From contig JAMOTN010000036.1 in the NCBI GenBank assembly GCA_027062325.1, forward strand, positions 1 through 7,507: a stretch of 7,507 bases of DNA, in the 5' to 3' direction. Source of the stretch: a bacterium (GTDB lineage: Bacteria > JAMOTN01). Under the pieces are notes generated by a model, which searched no databases, was not told where the DNA came from, and saw nothing but the letters and a program-made list of their open reading frames with translations. This document shows, in pieces, positions 1-7,507 of this stretch; position 1 is the first letter of the stretch; each line of letters opens with the position of its first letter. Both the position numbers and the translations under genes were made by a program.

Positions 1-276
1 GTCATTACCCTCTATGATGCCTTCTCTACATCCTTAAAGAAAGCACGTGCTTTTCAAGAAGAGGTTGGTTCAAGAAAGAGAATTTTAAGGGATTACAAGA
101 TGATGTATCAAACTGGGAAAGCAACAATTACTGATGTTTTAAAGCAATTAGTTGCTTATAAGGCAAGTAAATTAGCTTTTTATTCTTCAATGTATCAATC
201 TTTAAATGACGCCTTTGAAATTTTTAAGGAGGTAGAAATAGATGAGAGAAGTGAGCTTATCAAAATCTTATTCTAA
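1..276 (+). CDS. TolC-family outer membrane efflux protein, C-terminal end (5' truncated by the window)
   Basis: Frame 1 is open from the window edge to a TAA at 274-276, giving the last 91 residues of a protein whose start lies upstream. The fragment is almost entirely amphipathic helix. Residues 30-50 (R-x-Y-x-x-x-Y-x-x-G-x-x-x-x-x-D-V-L-K-Q-L) match the repeat seen in TolC/OEP proteins, where Y-x-x-G...DVL opens the last long tunnel helix. Proteins of this family form trimeric channels that span the outer membrane and reach into the periplasm to meet an adaptor and an inner-membrane pump. Both partners follow directly here, which supports the call. The last 12 codons (241-276) are shared, in another frame, with the start of the adaptor gene. 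The fold assignment rests on pattern and context; which substrate-specific subfamily it belongs to cannot be told. Confidence 0.8.
   Translation, partial: VITLYDAFSTSLKKARAFQEEVGSRKRILRDYKMMYQTGKATITDVLKQLVAYKASKLAFYSSMYQSLNDAFEIFKEVEIDERSELIKILF
226..233 (+). promoter_or_regulatory. Ribosome binding site of the adaptor gene, inside the upstream gene
   Basis: AAGGAGGT is a near-perfect Shine-Dalgarno sequence ending 8 nt before the ATG at 242. It lies within the coding sequence of the outer-membrane channel gene, so it decides the adaptor start and implies coupled translation of the two genes. Confidence 0.85.
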
Positions 277-1318
277 ACTTTTTTCAGTAAAAGGTTGTAA
301 ACGGAGAGTGTTTTTAGCAGTATTGGTGTTAGTGTTGATGTTTATTTTGGAAAGTATATGTACTGCTACCTCAACTCAAAACATATTTTTCTATAAACTA
401 AAGCGTGAAATATTTTCTCCTTATATTCAAACTTATGGAATAGTTGTGCCGGATGAGGTGAAAGCTGTTGTAGAAACACCGGGAAAACTCATATTTACAG
501 TGCCAGAAGGAACTCACTTTAAAAAAGGAGAGTTGATTGCCAAGGTTGATACTTCTACACTTCAGAAGAAACTTGAAGCGCTACGTTTTCAGAGAAAATC
601 TTTGGAATCTAACTTTGAGTATTTGACTCGAGAATTGAAAAGAGCTGAAAAATTGTTCAAAAAGAAAGTTATAGCTAAAAGCGATTATGAAAAAATTCTC
701 TATCAATTTCAGGCAACCCAAGCTCAATTGGATGCTATTGCCAAACAAATTGAAGAGTTAGAGATAACTATACGGAAAGGATCTCTGTTTGCTCCTTTTG
801 ATGGGTTTGTCTTGAAAAAGTTACTTCAAACCTACGACTTTGCAAAATCTCCTGTATATATTCTAGCGAAGGATAAGGCAAAGTTTAACTTCTGGGTGCC
901 TGTAGATAAACTTGAATATTTTAAGAAGGCAGTTGCGGTCAAAACAGAAGATTTTGTGATAAAGCTAGCACACACCACAGTTGAATCTTCTTTCAGGCCC
1001 ATTCCCTACACGGGGCAGATAAGCATTTTGTGTCCAGTAGATTCAAAATACATAGGAAAGTCTTACAAAACCTATATACTACTGCCAACAACAGAGGTGA
1101 TCAGAGTTCCTCTGGGGGCAGTTTTAATGGTTAAGGATAAAATGTTCGTATTGAAAAAAGAAGGAGACAAATACATAAGACAAGAAATTGAGCCGTGGTT
1201 TGTGTATGAAGATTCTGTTTTGGTTAAACGTGGGATCTCAGAGGGAGATGAAATACTGCGAGTTGGAATTTACAGCACAACGTTTGACAAAACTGTTTAT
1301 TTGGACAGAAAAAAATAA
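242..1318 (+). CDS. Periplasmic adaptor (membrane fusion protein, HlyD/AcrA type) of an RND efflux system
   Basis: The 358-residue protein bridges the inner-membrane pump and the outer-membrane channel. A basic N-terminus (K20 R21 R22) precedes one hydrophobic segment at about 23-36, read as a membrane anchor or uncleaved signal. The first lipoyl/barrel-sandwich half is at about 65-103, with VVETPGKLIFTVPEG and the family-typical FKKGELIAKVD. A charged coiled-coil hairpin follows at about 105-178. The second lipoyl half begins with the characteristic LFAPFDGFVLKK (182-193). Beta-barrel and membrane-proximal domains follow, and VLVKRGISEGDEIL (327-339) matches the usual end of these proteins (V-x-x-G-[IL]-x-x-G-D-x-[IV]). 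The start is set by AAGGAGGT at 226-233, even though it lies inside the preceding gene. The RND pump gene starts 35 bp downstream. No lipoprotein box is seen: Cys40 follows Glu-Ser-Ile. Function is secure at family level; the substrate is unknown. Confidence 0.92.
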   Translation: MREVSLSKSYSKLFSVKGCKRRVFLAVLVLVLMFILESICTATSTQNIFFYKLKREIFSPYIQTYGIVVPDEVKAVVETPGKLIFTVPEGTHFKKGELIAKVDTSTLQKKLEALRFQRKSLESNFEYLTRELKRAEKLFKKKVIAKSDYEKILYQFQATQAQLDAIAKQIEELEITIRKGSLFAPFDGFVLKKLLQTYDFAKSPVYILAKDKAKFNFWVPVDKLEYFKKAVAVKTEDFVIKLAHTTVESSFRPIPYTGQISILCPVDSKYIGKSYKTYILLPTTEVIRVPLGAVLMVKDKMFVLKKEGDKYIRQEIEPWFVYEDSVLVKRGISEGDEILRVGIYSTTFDKTVYLDRKK

Positions 1319-1340
1319 AAACAGCAATTTTGTCTTAAAG

Positions 1341-1347
1341 AGAGGTG
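1341..1347 (+). promoter_or_regulatory. Ribosome binding site of the RND pump, indicating a TTG start
   Basis: AGAGGTG ends 6 nt before a TTG at 1354. An alternative GTG codon at 1345 lies inside this motif, so using GTG would leave only weak purines (AAAGAGA) as a binding site. The spacing favours TTG. Confidence 0.65.
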
Positions 1348-1353
1348 GGTAGG

Positions 1354-4300
1354 TTGAATATATCGCGGTTTGCTGCGTATCACCCGGTTCCAGTAGCGGT
1401 TTTCGCATTGGTTGCAGTTATATTGGGATTTTGGGCATGGTTTTATATGCCTGTGGATTATATGCCGGAAATGGATATTCCCATAAGCATAGTGGTTATT
1501 CCGTGGGAAGGAGCAGATCCGGAAACCATAGAGGAAGAAATAGTAAAACCTCTTGAAAGTTTTCTGGCTGGAGCTAAAAATGCCAAAAAAGTTAAAGCAA
1601 TGAGTATGGACAATGCAGGAGTTGTCATTGTTGAGTATCACTCCTTTGTCACCAAAAGGGAGGCAATGCAGAATACAAGAGAAGAAATTGAAAAGTTTAA
1701 AGCGGTTTTTCAACTTCCCAAAGGAGCAAAGGAACCGGCAATATTTCAGATGGATCCTGCAATGATGCCAATTTTATTTATGGGATTTACAAGCACTAAA
1801 CTCACACCCCGTCAGCTTTACTCCTTTATTGATCAGAATATAAAGCCGGAGCTGGAGAGCGTTGAAGGTGTTGGAAATGTCATGATATTTTCTCCGAATA
1901 AGCGTGAAATACATGTTATCCCAAATGTTGAGAAGTGTTTGGCTTACGGAATAACTTATGCGGACGTAATTACAGCTTTGCAAACTCATCTTAAGAATCT
2001 TCCTGCAGGAGATGAAGAGATTGGAAAAGGATTGCGGAGGATTAAGGTTTACTTAAAGCCGTATTTTGTCCCTAAAATAGGAAAAATTCCTGTGAAAAAG
2101 TTAAAAGATGGGAACGTGATTTATCTAGAAGACGTGTGTAAAATTGAAGATGCTGTTGCTAAGAAACAAGGAGAAGTTAGTATAGAGGGGATTCCAGCAG
2201 TTTTCGTGGCAATCAGGAAACAGCAGGGAGCCAACATAGTCAGCACTACTGATGCTGTTAAAAGAAAAATTAAAGAGATTTTGGAAAAGTATCCTCATAT
2301 AAAAATTGCTTTGAGTTTTGAAGTCGCAAAGTTCATAAAGCAGTCAATTAGCAACTTAACCCAAAATGTGATAACGAGTATCATCATTGTTTCAATTACA
2401 GTTTGGCTGTTTTTGAAAAGATTTTCTGCTGTTATGGCGGTAATAACGACTATTCCCATAGCTTTCATATTTACCCTGTTCCTTATGTATTTGAAGGGAA
2501 TGACATTGAACATGATATCTTTGGGTGGATTGGCAATAGCAATTGGAATGCTTGTTGACAATGCAGTTGTTGTAACTGAAAATACTGCCCGCCTTGTTAC
2601 CGAGAAAAAGTTTTCCTCTTTAAAAGAAGCAGCTATTCAGGGTGCATCCGAGATGATTTTGCCCATAATTGCAAGCACCTTGACAAGTGTAATCGTTTTT
2701 TTACCCATAGCTTTTTCAAGGGGGCTCGCTTCAAAGTTCTTTGGGCAGTTGGCGGCGACTATAACGTTTTCTCTGACTATTTCAATCATCACAAGTTTTA
2801 CGGTTGCAGTTTCCATACTTGCTAAATATGCCAAACCAATTCCTGAAGGCTGGTTTGTGAAAAGCTTGCAGACTGCCTACACAAAACTTGTAAGTGTGAT
2901 TGCTAGGAGCGGATTCGTGGCTTTTGTAATAATAGGCGGACTGGTATTACTGACAGTTGGTGGGTTAGGAGTGGTTAAGCACATGAATGCCACTTTCATC
3001 TCTGAAGCCGATGCCGATGATTTTGGAGTGGTAGTAAAACTTCCGATAGGAACAAACTGGCAGGCTTCAAAACAGGTGGCAGATTTGCTTTTGCATGAGA
3101 TAGAGGATAGAATTCCGGAAGTTGAATACATTTTACAACAAGTTGGTGTAACTCAAGCTTCTGCTTTGGAAAGTGCTGCCTTTGGGGGAGAATCGGGAGA
3201 AGAGGTTATAAGTTTGTATATAAGGTTGAAATCCGACAGAAAGAGGACAGCTCCTCAAATAATGGACGAAATAGCCAAAATCGTTAACGATCCAAAGTGG
3301 CACTTTACAAGTGTTAAGTTTCAAAAGATTACACAGGCAACTATTGGAGCAGGAGACGAGTTTGTGGTTGCTCTATATTCAAACGATGAGGATACTCTCG
3401 AAGATTACGCCAGCTTTTTAAAGAAAGAACTTTTAAAGTTACCCGAGATAAAAAGCATAGTTTCCACCTTGGAAGATAAAAAGCCTGAGGTAAAATATAC
3501 GATTAAAAACGACGTATTAAAACATTTTGGAATACCTGAAGAGTTCATAAGAGCAGCCTTGTGGATGTCCACCACTGGACTTGAAACTGGAAGAATTTTT
3601 CTTGACGGAGAAAGCATTAAGGTTAGAGCCAAGCTGAAACCTAAAACTCATGAACTTTTTCTTCCTTTGGGGGAAATTGCGATCCCTATTGACAACTTTG
3701 TAAACAAGGAATACAGGCTTGTCCCGCTTGTCAGAAACAGATACAAGAAAAGAAGTGTGGTATATCTAAAATGTACACTAGAACCTAACACTCCATTGAA
3801 AACTTTGAAAGAAAAAACGATAAAGCTCATAGAAAAGAGCAAACCACAAAGCATCCTGTTTGACTTTGAAGGTAGTGTTGAAAAAATGGAAGAGGTATTT
3901 TCAGACTTGGGAAAGATGTTTATTTTAAGCACCATACTGGTTTACCTTACAATGGCTGCGCAGTTTGAAAGCTGGATATTGCCGTTTTTGATTGCACTCT
4001 TGGTTCCAACAGATATAATTCTGGCAATGTCTGTTTTTCCGATAATAGGCAAAAGTTTTGACGTGACAGCCTTCCTTGGTATGATAGTTTTGGCAGGAAT
4101 CGTTGTTAACAACGGAATAGTCTTCATAGACGTGTTTAAAAACCACTATTCAGAACTTGGTGCGGATGCAATAACCCTTGCTGCGTCTCAGCGTTTAAGA
4201 CCCATTCTGATAACTTCACTCACAACGATCGTTGGGATGATACCGCTGGCACTTGGAATGGGGAAAGGTGCAGAGTTGAGACAATCCATGGGAATAATGG

Positions 4301-4413
4301 TTGGAGGGGGTATGACGATTGCCACATTGGTAACACTCTTTGGTTTACCTGCACTTTTGAAGATTTATACTTTAATAACCGGCACTGTTGGCAGAGGTGG
4401 AGAGAAAAAATGA
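1354..4413 (+). CDS. RND-superfamily inner-membrane efflux transporter
   Basis: From the TTG start the product is 1019 residues, normal for an RND pump, and begins with the typical M-N-x-S-R-F-A...HPV. These proteins work as trimers and use the proton gradient to export substrates through an adaptor and a TolC-like channel, both encoded just upstream. The family duplication is visible. TM1 (about 11-30) is followed by a periplasmic loop opening with MPVDYMPEMDIP and GADPETIEEEIVKPLE. TM2-TM6 lie at about 337-490, a second large loop at about 545-850, and TM8-TM12 at about 853-1008. TM4 carries GMLVDNAVVVTEN (398-410), so only Asp402 of the Asp-Asp relay pair of AcrB is present and Asn403 replaces the second. 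The matching half has VVNNGIVFID (917-926). This D-N/N-N arrangement is known in part of the RND family, so the pump is probably functional. An alternative GTG start at 1345 would add three residues. The gene ends in an ATGA overlap with the repressor gene. Substrate is not predictable. Confidence 0.95.
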   Translation: MNISRFAAYHPVPVAVFALVAVILGFWAWFYMPVDYMPEMDIPISIVVIPWEGADPETIEEEIVKPLESFLAGAKNAKKVKAMSMDNAGVVIVEYHSFVTKREAMQNTREEIEKFKAVFQLPKGAKEPAIFQMDPAMMPILFMGFTSTKLTPRQLYSFIDQNIKPELESVEGVGNVMIFSPNKREIHVIPNVEKCLAYGITYADVITALQTHLKNLPAGDEEIGKGLRRIKVYLKPYFVPKIGKIPVKKLKDGNVIYLEDVCKIEDAVAKKQGEVSIEGIPAVFVAIRKQQGANIVSTTDAVKRKIKEILEKYPHIKIALSFEVAKFIKQSISNLTQNVITSIIIVSITVWLFLKRFSAVMAVITTIPIAFIFTLFLMYLKGMTLNMISLGGLAIAIGMLVDNAVVVTENTARLVTEKKFSSLKEAAIQGASEMILPIIASTLTSVIVFLPIAFSRGLASKFFGQLAATITFSLTISIITSFTVAVSILAKYAKPIPEGWFVKSLQTAYTKLVSVIARSGFVAFVIIGGLVLLTVGGLGVVKHMNATFISEADADDFGVVVKLPIGTNWQASKQVADLLLHEIEDRIPEVEYILQQVGVTQASALESAAFGGESGEEVISLYIRLKSDRKRTAPQIMDEIAKIVNDPKWHFTSVKFQKITQATIGAGDEFVVALYSNDEDTLEDYASFLKKELLKLPEIKSIVSTLEDKKPEVKYTIKNDVLKHFGIPEEFIRAALWMSTTGLETGRIFLDGESIKVRAKLKPKTHELFLPLGEIAIPIDNFVNKEYRLVPLVRNRYKKRSVVYLKCTLEPNTPLKTLKEKTIKLIEKSKPQSILFDFEGSVEKMEEVFSDLGKMFILSTILVYLTMAAQFESWILPFLIALLVPTDIILAMSVFPIIGKSFDVTAFLGMIVLAGIVVNNGIVFIDVFKNHYSELGADAITLAASQRLRPILITSLTTIVGMIPLALGMGKGAELRQSMGIMVGGGMTIATLVTLFGLPALLKIYTLITGTVGRGGEKK
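4394..4402 (+). promoter_or_regulatory. Ribosome binding site of the TetR-family gene
   Basis: GAGGTGGAG lies in the last codons of the pump gene. Its GGAG part (4399-4402) ends 7 nt before the ATG at 4410, supporting a start that overlaps the pump's TGA. Confidence 0.7.
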
Positions 4414-5072
4414 TAGATAAGTTGATAGCAGAATTTGGTGCGATTGAAGATGAAAACTCCACGAAAACGAGACTTGTAAAGGCAGCACTTGAGATTCTGG
4501 AAAATGAGGGAATAGCAGGTTTTACTCTTCGCAAAGTTGCTTCTAAAGCTGGTATTACTGTGTCTTCAATTTACAATCATTTTAAAAGTAAGCAGGAGTT
4601 ACTGACGCATTTGATAGTTTTTTCATTCGTGGAAGTTATCTATTCTGCGGTAGTAGAAAGTTTGGTAGAATCGGGAGACAATTTGCCTCAGAAGTTGAAA
4701 AACTTTCCAGTCGTATTTTTCAAAAAAATTAGAGAAAAGGCGCAGTTTCACGATTTTAAGACACAAACCGCGGTTTTAGAATTAAAATACTGGCTTGTGA
4801 AGTTTGAAGAGGGGAAGGAGCTTTACCGTAAATTGCACGAAAAATTGTCGGAACTTTTAACCCAAAGACTTCCCCTTGAATATGAGAAGGCAGAAGCATT
4901 GCTTGCGACGGTGATTGGAATGGCAGAGGCATTGTTGTTTAAAACTTTTTTTCAAAATTATTCTGGTTCAGATAGTGCAAGTACAACTAAATCTTTCCCA
5001 TTATCAGTTGATAATTCCAAAGTAGTTTTGCATTGCGAAAAATTTTTACAGACAATCGGCGAAATTTTGTAG
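4410..5072 (+). CDS. TetR/AcrR-family transcriptional repressor
   Basis: The 220-residue protein has the TetR architecture of an N-terminal DNA-binding domain and a variable helical ligand-binding/dimerisation domain. Helix 1 is at about 19-34 (TRLVKAALEILENEG). The helix-turn-helix is at about 38-59, with FTLRKVASKAGITVSSIYNHF showing the family signature: F-T-[LV]-x-x-[VI]-A...G-[IV]-[ST]...[IL]-Y-x-[HY]-F. Residues from about 65 on are helical and unlike any specific ligand class I recognise. A Ser/Thr-rich stretch (about 183-203) near the C-terminus is probably a loop. The start codon overlaps the pump stop (ATGA), implying translational coupling. Such regulators commonly repress a neighbouring efflux operon and release DNA when bound by a pump substrate. 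Here it would be an autoregulated last gene; this role is inferred from position. Most family examples are divergent or first in the operon. Confidence 0.9.
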   Translation: MIDKLIAEFGAIEDENSTKTRLVKAALEILENEGIAGFTLRKVASKAGITVSSIYNHFKSKQELLTHLIVFSFVEVIYSAVVESLVESGDNLPQKLKNFPVVFFKKIREKAQFHDFKTQTAVLELKYWLVKFEEGKELYRKLHEKLSELLTQRLPLEYEKAEALLATVIGMAEALLFKTFFQNYSGSDSASTTKSFPLSVDNSKVVLHCEKFLQTIGEIL

Positions 5073-5363
5073 TTTTTTACACAACTCTTTTTCCAAGTTT
5101 CAGTAATAATTTGTTAAGCTAATTATAGGAATTTAAAGAAATAGCAGGATTTTGGGTGGTTGGTTGGGGTAACTTTAAATGAGATCCTACCAGTAATAAA
5201 TTACTACAACCTCTTCTGAGTTGAAGCAGGTGATATTGAATTTGGAAAAAGAGTTGAAAAAATTTGAGGTGTAGAGAGAAGTGTTATGGTCTAAAGAAAA
5301 TAAACGAAGTTCAGGATTAAACGATTCCGACAATAAAATAAACTCAATAGGAGTGAGCAAAAG
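5073..5363 (+). other. Spacer between the efflux operon and the chemoreceptor-like gene
   Basis: No convincing gene or RNA is visible in these 291 bp. A T-run follows the TetR stop (5074-5079), but only a weak AT-only stem precedes it, so I do not call a terminator. Two short overlapping stretches look faintly protein-like. One frame over about 5143-5217 reads from a stop to TGA through QDFGWLVGVTLNEILPVINY. Another frame ends with ELKKFEV and a stop at about 5272-5274. They could be remains of a decayed gene or chance. A poor sigma-70-like pair (TTCAGG at 5310-5315, 18 bp, TAAAAT at 5334-5339) lies just ahead of the next gene. Confidence 0.4.
5349..5354 (+). promoter_or_regulatory. Ribosome binding site of the chemoreceptor-like gene
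   Basis: AGGAGT ends 9 nt before the ATG at 5364. This supports that start over the second ATG two codons later. Confidence 0.7.
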
Positions 5364-6710
5364 ATGGAAATGATTTGTATTATCTTACTTTTTTTGTTAT
5401 TAGCGTGTGCATTGTGGTTGGGGCATAGGTATAAGAGATTAAGCGCTGTTGTTAACAGCTTTCTAGACAAACTTTGTCGCTTTGACTTTAGGGTAACAGA
5501 AGTAGAGAAAAGAGAATTTAGAGGGATATTAAGATCCAAGTCGTTGGGTGAAGTAGAAAAGCTGGCTTTATCAATGGATGAAATGATTATGAAAAAAAGA
5601 GCGGCAATAGGAGCTGCCTTTTACAAGGCATTTTGGATTAAAGAAAATATACTGCAATTGAAAGAAAGAGTAATTGCTATTTCTAAAATTTTGGCAGATT
5701 CACTGTTCCTTGAGAGAGAACATACATTACGGGAAAATTTTGAGTCGGCAAAAACAAAGTTGGAGCTTTCTAATGCAAATTCTGATAAACAAATGGAGGA
5801 AACAATCCAACATGTATTGTTGTTTTTAGATGAACAAATGGACAACATTAATCAAGGAACAATTCTTTTAGCGAATGCCATGAAGGATTTGGAGAGCACA
5901 ATTAACCTTATTTTTCCCAAATCTCAATTTATCAAGAAGTTGACAACAAGGGTAGATTTACTTGCCTTGAACTCTTCAATTGAGGCTGCCAGAGCGGGAA
6001 ATGCAGGTAGAGGATTCGGAGTAGTTGCTTTTGAAATCAAAAAACTTGCCGAGGATACTCAAAAAAGTGCTGAAGATATAGAATCTGCTCTGAAAGAACT
6101 GTTAGATAGCCTACAGAAAACTAAAAAAGTTTTTCAGAGGTTTGAAGACTCAGTTCAAAATTCTACAGAAAGAGTAGAGAAAGCTGCTCTCAATATAGAA
6201 AAATATGTTAAGAATTCCCAGAATGCCTTGGACAATATAAAGAAGAAAGTGGAAGGTTTGGTAGAAGAGTTAATTACTCATCTGGATGGAATTCTAGAAT
6301 TTATTGAAAGTATCATTGATAGTTTTAAGAAGTTTGCTCAAACGGTAAACTTGTTTTCTGTCAACTCGTTAGTTGAACCAGAGGAGGCGTTTAGTGAGAT
6401 AAAAGATGGGAAAGCTATTTTGGTTTGCACTATGCCTCAATGGTTAATTCCTGATGAAGTGGCTTGTTGTAGCTTCTATTTAAACCCTGAGAAATTTGAA
6501 AAGGTTGTAGAAAAACTCCCCAAAGATAAGAAGTATTTTCTACTTTGCTTGTCTGGTCACATAGCTAGCTGGCTATTTGAACTTTTAAAAGAGCATAGTT
6601 TTAGAAATGTATTTGTTGTAAAGGGTGGCTTAATAGGCTGGAAAAAAGCCAAGTTGCCTTTACAGCCCAAGTCTAAACTGATAGAAGTAGAAAAATACTT
6701 TAGAGGTTGA
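5364..6710 (+). CDS. Membrane-anchored MCP-type signalling protein with a C-terminal rhodanese-like domain
   Basis: The 448-residue product combines three parts. Residues 4-20 form one hydrophobic helix followed by HRYKR, which by the positive-inside rule leaves the rest of the chain in the cytoplasm. Residues about 85-335 are long charged coiled coil around a chemoreceptor hairpin tip (192-230). The tip contains [16 protein letters not shown] and [18 protein letters not shown], matching the tip that binds CheA/CheW in methyl-accepting chemotaxis proteins. Residues about 345-433 resemble a rhodanese (sulfurtransferase) domain. A Lys-rich [11 protein letters not shown] leads into the active-site-loop position Cys395 (CLSGHIAS), then [21 protein letters not shown] closely follows the usual N-V-x-x-[LV]-x-G-G-[IL]-x-x-W-x-x-x-x-L-P ending. 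The first half is degenerate: the usual DVR and HI-x-G-A-x-x-I-P motifs are not recognisable, and Cys355, Cys368 and Cys369 lie there instead. There is no periplasmic sensor, no obvious HAMP and no C-terminal receptor-methylation tether. I infer a receptor for an intracellular sulfur or redox cue; enzymatic sulfur transfer is possible but unproven. Confidence 0.8.
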
Positions 6711-6915: not shown

Positions 6916-6980
6916 CACTAACAAGCAGTATTGGAAAAGTGCTATAAACAGGAGGCGAGGAAGTAAAAATCCTGTCATAG

Positions 6981-7170
6981 TCGTTCGGGTGTTAGGGAAG
7001 CCGGTGCAAAACCGGCGCTGCCCGCGCAGCTGTAACCGGGGAGCCGAGCTCCATTGGCTTGCTCCTCATGGGGTGTCAAGCCGGTCACTGGGATGGATTC
7101 GTGCAAGCGGCCATCCTGGGAAGGCAGGAGGTCGGTGATGATCCGGGAGCCAGAAGACCTGCCCGAACGC
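6981..7170 (+). promoter_or_regulatory. Cobalamin (vitamin B12) riboswitch aptamer
   Basis: The element folds around a closing stem CGTTCGGG (6982-6989) with CCCGAACG (7162-7169), 8 perfect pairs. Inside, in order, are GGGAA (6995-6999); a six-pair hairpin GCCGGT/ACCGGC with a GCAAA loop (7000-7016); the conserved core GCGCAGCTGTAACC (7024-7037); a GATGG/CCATC arm (7092-7096 with 7111-7115) joined to TGGGAAGGC (7117-7125); GATGATCCGGG (7137-7147); and the B12 box AGCCAGAAGACCTGCC (7148-7163). This is the full set of landmarks of the cobalamin riboswitch family, which binds adenosyl- or other cobalamins and usually lowers expression of the downstream gene when ligand is present. The element is about 64% GC by hand count, in contrast to its AT-rich surroundings, as expected for a structured RNA in a thermophile. 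Confidence 0.96.
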
Positions 7171-7198
7171 GAAAACGCGCGAGGCGGAGGTGTCACTT
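7168..7198 (+). promoter_or_regulatory. Riboswitch expression platform: short hairpin and strong Shine-Dalgarno
   Basis: CGCG-AAAA-CGCG (7168-7179) forms a tight hairpin directly after the aptamer and competes for the last closing-stem bases (7168-7169). GGAGGT (7186-7191) follows and ends 7 nt before the ATG at 7199. There is no terminator-like stem with a T-run, so control is most likely of translation initiation. ACCT-g-CC in the B12 box (7157-7163) can pair with GGAGGT, leaving one bulged G, which offers a possible ribosome-site sequestering structure. Confidence 0.6.
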
Positions 7199-7507
7199 AT
7201 GAAATTGCACGAGTGGCAAGGAAGGAAGCTTTTTCAAAAATTTGGAATACCTGTTTCTAACTTTTTTGTTGTTAGTTCTGCTGATGAAGCCTACAAAGCC
7301 GCCAAACAACTCAAAGCAAGCGATAAATTCCCAGTTGTTGTAAAAGTTCAGGTGCATGCTGGCGGTCGTGGAAAAGCAGGTGGAGTAAAACTTGTTAAAA
7401 GTCCTGATGAAGCTTATGAGGTAGCTAAAAACCTTTTGTCTTCCCCATTCAAAACTTCTCAAACTCCTATCCCCTTACCAGTTAACAAACTGATTGTTGC
7501 AGAAGCT
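7199..7507 (+). CDS. sucC: Succinyl-CoA synthetase (ADP-forming) beta subunit, N-terminal part (3' cut by window)
   Basis: Frame 2 is open from ATG 7199 to the window end, giving 103 residues of a protein normally near 390-400. It begins MKLHEWQGRKLFQKFGIPV, the classic SucC start of an ATP-grasp domain, and continues with VVKVQVHAGGRGKAGGVKL (47-65). That segment contains the nucleotide-binding Lys49 and the glycine-rich loop 55-62. VNKLIVAEA at the end matches the next conserved strand. The enzyme joins succinate and CoA at the cost of ATP, or the reverse, in the oxidative or reductive TCA cycle; a sucD alpha-subunit gene is expected next. Related paralogues (malate-CoA ligase beta, citryl-CoA synthetase large subunit) share this N-terminus and cannot be excluded from the fragment. 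The start is fixed by GGAGGT at 7186-7191. Expression is expected to respond to cobalamin through the riboswitch immediately upstream. Confidence 0.9.
   Translation, partial: MKLHEWQGRKLFQKFGIPVSNFFVVSSADEAYKAAKQLKASDKFPVVVKVQVHAGGRGKAGGVKLVKSPDEAYEVAKNLLSSPFKTSQTPIPLPVNKLIVAEA

Follow-up and report, generated by a model that had tools for sequence, protein, structure and literature searches.

We found a chemoreceptor gene in which one reading frame carries an MCP signalling hairpin and then a C-terminal rhodanese-like domain, in a genome that also holds genes for CheW, CheA and flagellar proteins. This MCP-then-rhodanese order is real and well-formed, is represented by one example and is apparently undescribed. 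Most likely the rhodanese-like tail serves as a sensor in the cytoplasm, and C395, as a persulfide or an otherwise modified thiol, would tune CheA, by analogy with the CZB cysteine of TlpD. To the more specific reading, a receptor class that uses the rhodanese fold as a cytoplasmic sensor of persulfide or sulfane sulfur and thereby lets cells orient by the reactive-sulfur status inside them, we give a probability of roughly one in three (0.35).

The receptor gene and its genome of origin

The window, that is the whole stretch of 7507 bases analysed here, is an entire contig (C36) of a 1.65 Mb draft genome which is 84% complete and is the sole representative of its phylum among the genomes searched. 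The receptor gene runs from an ATG at 5364 to a stop codon at 6708-6710, and the ORF list and translation have no internal stop or frameshift.

5349-5353, + strand: AGGAG, probable Shine-Dalgarno sequence of the receptor gene, read from the sequence some 10 bases before the ATG
5364-6710, + strand: receptor gene, 448 aa, with membrane helix, MCP hairpin and C-terminal rhodanese-like domain (ORF list and translation)

A single known copy in one incomplete draft, with no orthologue found, could point to an artefact or a decaying gene, whether a chimeric assembly or an accidental fusion devoid of function. We consider the chance of this very slim, as the frame is continuous through both domains behind a ribosome-binding site, the codon-position G+C is alike in the MCP and rhodanese halves, and the key residues of both hairpin and rhodanese are intact. 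The tetranucleotide profile of the contig compared with its own genome is 0.963, inside the range of that genome's own pieces (0.954-0.984), and the junction between the two domains lies away from the contig edges. A chimeric assembly is therefore unlikely; the sequence-only reading had raised an artefact joining two genes as a danger to its claim, and nothing suggests joined genes.

Membrane helix and signalling hairpin

5373-5426, + strand: N-terminal helix predicted to lie in the membrane, about residues 4-21, with basic residues after it (hydrophobic stretch in the translation)
5874-6239, + strand: MCPsignal domain, residues 171-292 (Pfam E 1.3e-23; alignment with 31 other receptors)
5931-6008, + strand: hairpin tip, the CheA/CheW contact region, about residues 190-215 (alignment with receptors of the same genome and others)
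6009-6353, + strand: descending coiled-coil arm and linker, residues 216-330 (full-length AlphaFold2 model)

The MCPsignal match (PF00015) scores 84.1 bits against a curated cut-off of 34.6, and the tip, with a 24-residue core sequence at about 199-222, retains the residues that are invariant across the 32 aligned receptors, including the E, R and G that contact CheW and CheA. Residues 140-335 form a single helix in the full-length AlphaFold2 model. The only clear membrane-type stretch in the translation is the one near residues 4-21, and this predicted helix leaves a periplasmic sensor no room; given the basic residues that follow it, the whole of the remaining receptor would by the usual rule be cytoplasmic. 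Pfam finds no HAMP, periplasmic or ligand-binding domain in the receptor. In the absence of HAMP, periplasmic and other sensor domains, the input would naturally come from the tail, the sole candidate. The strict methylation-site consensus is absent from the receptor, with one loose match at residue 298; it may be noted that this motif differs among receptor classes.

Fold of the C-terminal tail

6366-6662, + strand: rhodanese-like domain, about residues 335-433 (Pfam, domain model, fold searches)

The Rhodanese profile (PF00581) matches residues 376-429, the C-terminal half of the domain only, with 24.0 bits (E 5.5e-5), a score barely above the curated cut-off of 22.2. The AlphaFold2 model of residues 325-448 is alpha/beta with a mean pLDDT of 83.8 and a pTM of 0.76, and was made from a 42-row alignment whose rows were rhodaneses, which favours a rhodanese outcome. 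Rhodaneses are the top Foldseek matches of this model (E down to 2.8e-6) and the best ones in VIA-align (Z up to 14.9 over 105 residues). A full-length model made from receptor rows only, of low confidence in the tail, places a helix at 375-384, a strand at 391-395, a helix at 398-410 and a strand at 416-420, and this modelled order of elements around C395 is that expected at a rhodanese active site. Profile and models together point to a divergent rhodanese-like domain. A CZB domain was considered for the tail and rejected, there being no CZB Pfam match and the predicted fold being that of a rhodanese.

These results bear out the domain order that the sequence-only reading had proposed, with both modules over their Pfam cut-offs in one frame. 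The GGLIGW...LPL ending that it had singled out is present at 421-426 and 431-433, and the failure of profile and fold that it had named as fatal did not occur, the rhodanese match being significant both ways.

Motifs, cysteines and family placement of the tail

6426-6470, + strand: region of three more cysteines (C355, C368, C369), resembling the LVCAY...C half of rhodanese_LYCAU (seleno)proteins (alignments)
6546-6569, + strand: putative active-site loop C395-L-S-G-H-I-A-S402, with the cysteine in the catalytic position (alignment with 41 rhodanese domains)

In the 41 aligned rhodanese domains, at least 90% have C in the column of C395, and the column of the GG...W motif is conserved to the same level; the G at +3 from C395 is also retained. 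The CLSGHIAS loop is without the Arg of active sulfurtransferases, and the N-terminal DVR and GHI motifs, which are usual and not universal among rhodaneses, are missing from the alignment (AILVCTM is found, and no GHI). Judged by sequence, the loss of these motifs and the atypical loop make full sulfurtransferase activity less likely, and the domain may be inactive. If so, it could be a catalytically dead docking or scaffold module that binds a partner (a sulfur carrier, a cysteine desulfurase or an adaptation enzyme) or aids receptor packing, with no small-molecule input, and the degenerate N-terminal half and the divergence from every rhodanese found (identity of at most about 38% over the domain) would fit such a role. 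We think this unlikely, however, since the catalytic-position cysteine and the +3 G have been kept though the remainder diverged, and since the receptor has no other sensor domain.

The N-terminal half of the tail resembles, in alignment, EEAYQKVKSGKAILVCAY of the small (seleno)protein family NCBIfam rhodanese_LYCAU. C355 aligns on a cysteine of this family, and C368 or C369 does likewise, less surely. The tail was nevertheless rejected as a member of the family (NF041203), as it scores 28.3 bits against a cut-off of 115 and has no CxU or CxC, the Sec position being Ser397 (C395-L-S397). A profile of ordinary rhodaneses scores 59 bits versus 40 for LYCAU, with the C-terminal half better against the ordinary one, a comparison that is not decisive because both sets were picked by similarity to the query. 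By our own identification, the rhodanese_LYCAU proteins seem to be the CxU form 2 of the COG0607 sulfurtransferases treated in a selenoprotein review (PMC9312934). Among their relatives, those in the match regions L120 and L128 have two in-frame TGA codons (YUAU, YUNU) and thus possibly two selenocysteines, and that of Acetomicrobium (L127) has Ser in the Sec position.

These cysteines bear on a second alternative, in which the rhodanese fold would act as a reactive-thiol switch for redox or electrophile signals (peroxide, HOCl, nitric oxide, or a disulfide of C395 with C355, C368 or C369) and not by sulfur transfer. Four cysteines in the tail, three of them sharing positions with a redox-type (seleno)rhodanese family, and the loop without Arg are consistent with it, as are the precedent of TlpD, where a cysteine of the C-terminal sensor is oxidised (PMC6715182), and the YgaP rhodanese domain, whose structure was solved S-nitrosylated according to the titles of the structure entries. 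However, C368/C369 align uncertainly and no orthologue speaks for conservation of the extra cysteines; we rate the thiol switch as rather unlikely.

Genome setting

One CheW ORF and a two-piece CheA are found on another contig (C55) of the same genome. The CheA is encoded by two ORFs that overlap (L111, 8933-11400), the one with Hpt and CheW-like domains (421 aa) and the other with dimerisation, ATPase and CheW-like domains (401 aa), and no CheA other than this pair was seen in the genome. The split recalls CheA3/CheA4 of Rhodobacter sphaeroides. ORFs that read as MotA-, MotB- and FliM-like from their sequences lie on contig C17. As the genome has flagellar genes and just one set of CheW and CheA, the pathway is likely to be chemotaxis rather than another Che-type one, the two options that the sequence-only reading had named. 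The receptor gene adjoins neither che nor sulfur genes. The genome has six further receptors, and one of them (L106, 8868-10811, contig C29) carries C-terminal CZB-like (below the Pfam cut-off) and hemerythrin domains after the hairpin. The source cell therefore already makes use of tail-end sensing on a receptor hairpin.

Around the receptor gene, positions 1-5072 of the window hold, in one direction, the end of an ORF that resembles an outer-membrane factor (91 codons, by look only), a membrane-fusion protein, an RND permease and a TetR regulator, which looks like a complete efflux operon. Downstream, a strong match to the cobalamin riboswitch (RF00174, 93.9 bits; 6970-7200) immediately precedes a sucC-like gene (ATP-grasp_2) that starts at about 7199; for a cobalamin riboswitch, this is an uncommon target. 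Neither the operon nor the riboswitch with its sucC-like gene points to sulfur.

Elsewhere in the genome (contig C5; L102, 5247-7136), an ArsR-family regulator, a divergent rhodanese-like protein and a TauE/SafE permease are adjacent. In other bacteria, such ArsR-rhodanese-TauE/SafE sets are associated with the handling of reactive sulfur or sulfite, and the present set is possibly a reactive-sulfur response cluster. Its regulator is above the cut-off of NF033788, with TsoR and BigR, both below cut-off, as the best specific models; taken alone, its rhodanese-like protein stays under the Pfam cut-off, and comparison of this second rhodanese-like protein with the receptor tail revealed no kinship. 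The 84%-complete genome yielded no NrfD-type polysulfide reductase subunit.

The ArsR-family and TauE genes could also speak for a sensor of oxyanions (phosphate, arsenate or a sulfite-like ion) that uses the rhodanese/Cdc25-type anion loop, as the loops of rhodaneses and of Cdc25/arsenate reductases bind oxyanions. The tail loop, however, has the length of a rhodanese loop and is without the Arg of Cdc25-type loops, which makes an oxyanion sensor very unlikely.

Search for further fusions

No second MCP-rhodanese fusion was found in about 650 genomes (386 diverse genomes and three phyla of 147, 25 and 103 genomes, with few overlaps) or on scanning 85,000 species genomes with sequence patterns. 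Among the ORFs of all loci retrieved, including those of at least 350 aa with tail matches from the 386 genomes, the gene in the window is the only one to match both the MCP and the rhodanese profile. The scan of the 85,000 genomes with the single tail sequence gave 98 pattern matches and no relative, its patterns of 8 exact residues reaching close relatives only, and that with a three-sequence alignment gave 52 rhodaneses, none of them in a receptor ORF. Both scans used short peptide patterns that would miss homologues below about 75% identity by our estimate, so the rarity of the fusion holds within the sample. Viral contigs held no MCP-rhodanese fusion, and neither did plasmids, where 6 weak matches were metallo-hydrolases or a rhodanese. 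One of the proteins from these searches (L186, 817 aa) resembles CoA-disulfide reductases and carries a rhodanese domain. The literature searched likewise contained no description of a rhodanese-tailed chemoreceptor, in agreement with the sequence-only reading, which knew of no class with this order; domain databases may nonetheless hold unremarked entries. To our knowledge, no chemoreceptor is known to read reactive sulfur via a sulfurtransferase fold.

Proposed mechanism

The rhodanese fold normally carries sulfur on a cysteine. If the tail works in this manner, the N-terminal helix would anchor the receptor dimer in the membrane and the hairpin tip would join the CheW/split-CheA array of the cell, as is known for the family, and the cytoplasmic sensor would sit where the hairpin base ends at the C-terminus. 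C395 would then take up sulfane sulfur from a persulfide, a polysulfide or a sulfur-carrier partner, perhaps exchanging it with C355, C368 or C369, and what this alters at the foot of the descending helix would shift CheA activity, allowing the cell to steer according to the reactive-sulfur status of its cytoplasm. That persulfidation of C395 alters the hairpin base and the activity of CheA we consider, by analogy, the likeliest of the readings, at somewhat short of even odds. On this view the tail would sense persulfide, sulfide or polysulfide.

The sulfur-sensor reading draws on the retained C395 and +3 G, the predicted rhodanese fold and the intact hairpin tip, together with the ArsR-rhodanese-TauE set elsewhere in the genome. 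Against it stand the divergent loop, the lost DVR/GHI motifs, the lack of sulfur genes nearby and of an NrfD subunit, the strict methylation-site motif that was not found in the receptor, and the want of an orthologue, which leaves no measure of how far C395 is conserved within the receptor type. The closest analogue with a known mechanism is TlpD, in which reversible oxidation of a single cysteine in the C-terminal zinc domain switches the signalling complex off (PMC6715182) and the ligand site is structurally coupled to the kinase interface (PMC12871147). Rhodanese cysteines are known to carry persulfides in cells, an example being C508 of CoAPR (PMC9405070). Among the loci retrieved, one (L045, 1360-1980) has a rhodanese domain and a CsoR-type repressor in a single ORF.

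Comparison with known systems

Bacteria of sulfidic habitats move along sulfur gradients. If the tail reports persulfides, it would tie sulfur chemistry to movement directly at the molecular level, and the source bacterium, of an almost unsampled phylum, may steer by its internal sulfur chemistry through a rhodanese-tailed receptor. What is new is the kind of sensor proposed at the receptor tail, of which one example is known, and the rhodanese would be an added fold on the short list of sensor domains at the tail end of the receptor hairpin.

The closest parallel in architecture is the TlpD-type CZB chemoreceptor, which likewise has a hairpin and then a small C-terminal cytoplasmic sensor with a reactive cysteine; CZB is, however, a helical zinc-binding domain, whereas the present receptor has an alpha/beta rhodanese tail and an N-terminal membrane helix. 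The hemerythrin-tailed receptor of the same genome shares the hairpin type and the tail-end sensing and differs in its CZB-like and hemerythrin sensors. With the rhodanese_LYCAU family, the CxU rhodanese-related (seleno)proteins, the tail has in common the G.AILVC motif, the cysteine positions of the N-terminal half and 38% identity to one member, but it falls far under the family cut-off, has neither CxU nor CxC and is fused to a receptor. GlpE, PspE and the YgaP rhodanese domain have the same fold, the catalytic-position cysteine and the GG...W motif, while the present tail is without DVR and GHI, has the loop CLSGHIAS and is again part of a receptor. Finally, the rhodanese-CsoR type and CoADR-RHD/CoAPR resemble the present protein in that a rhodanese module and a partner protein together deal with reactive sulfur or report on it; their outputs are transcription or catalysis, in contrast to the Che pathway into which the rhodanese-tailed receptor would feed.
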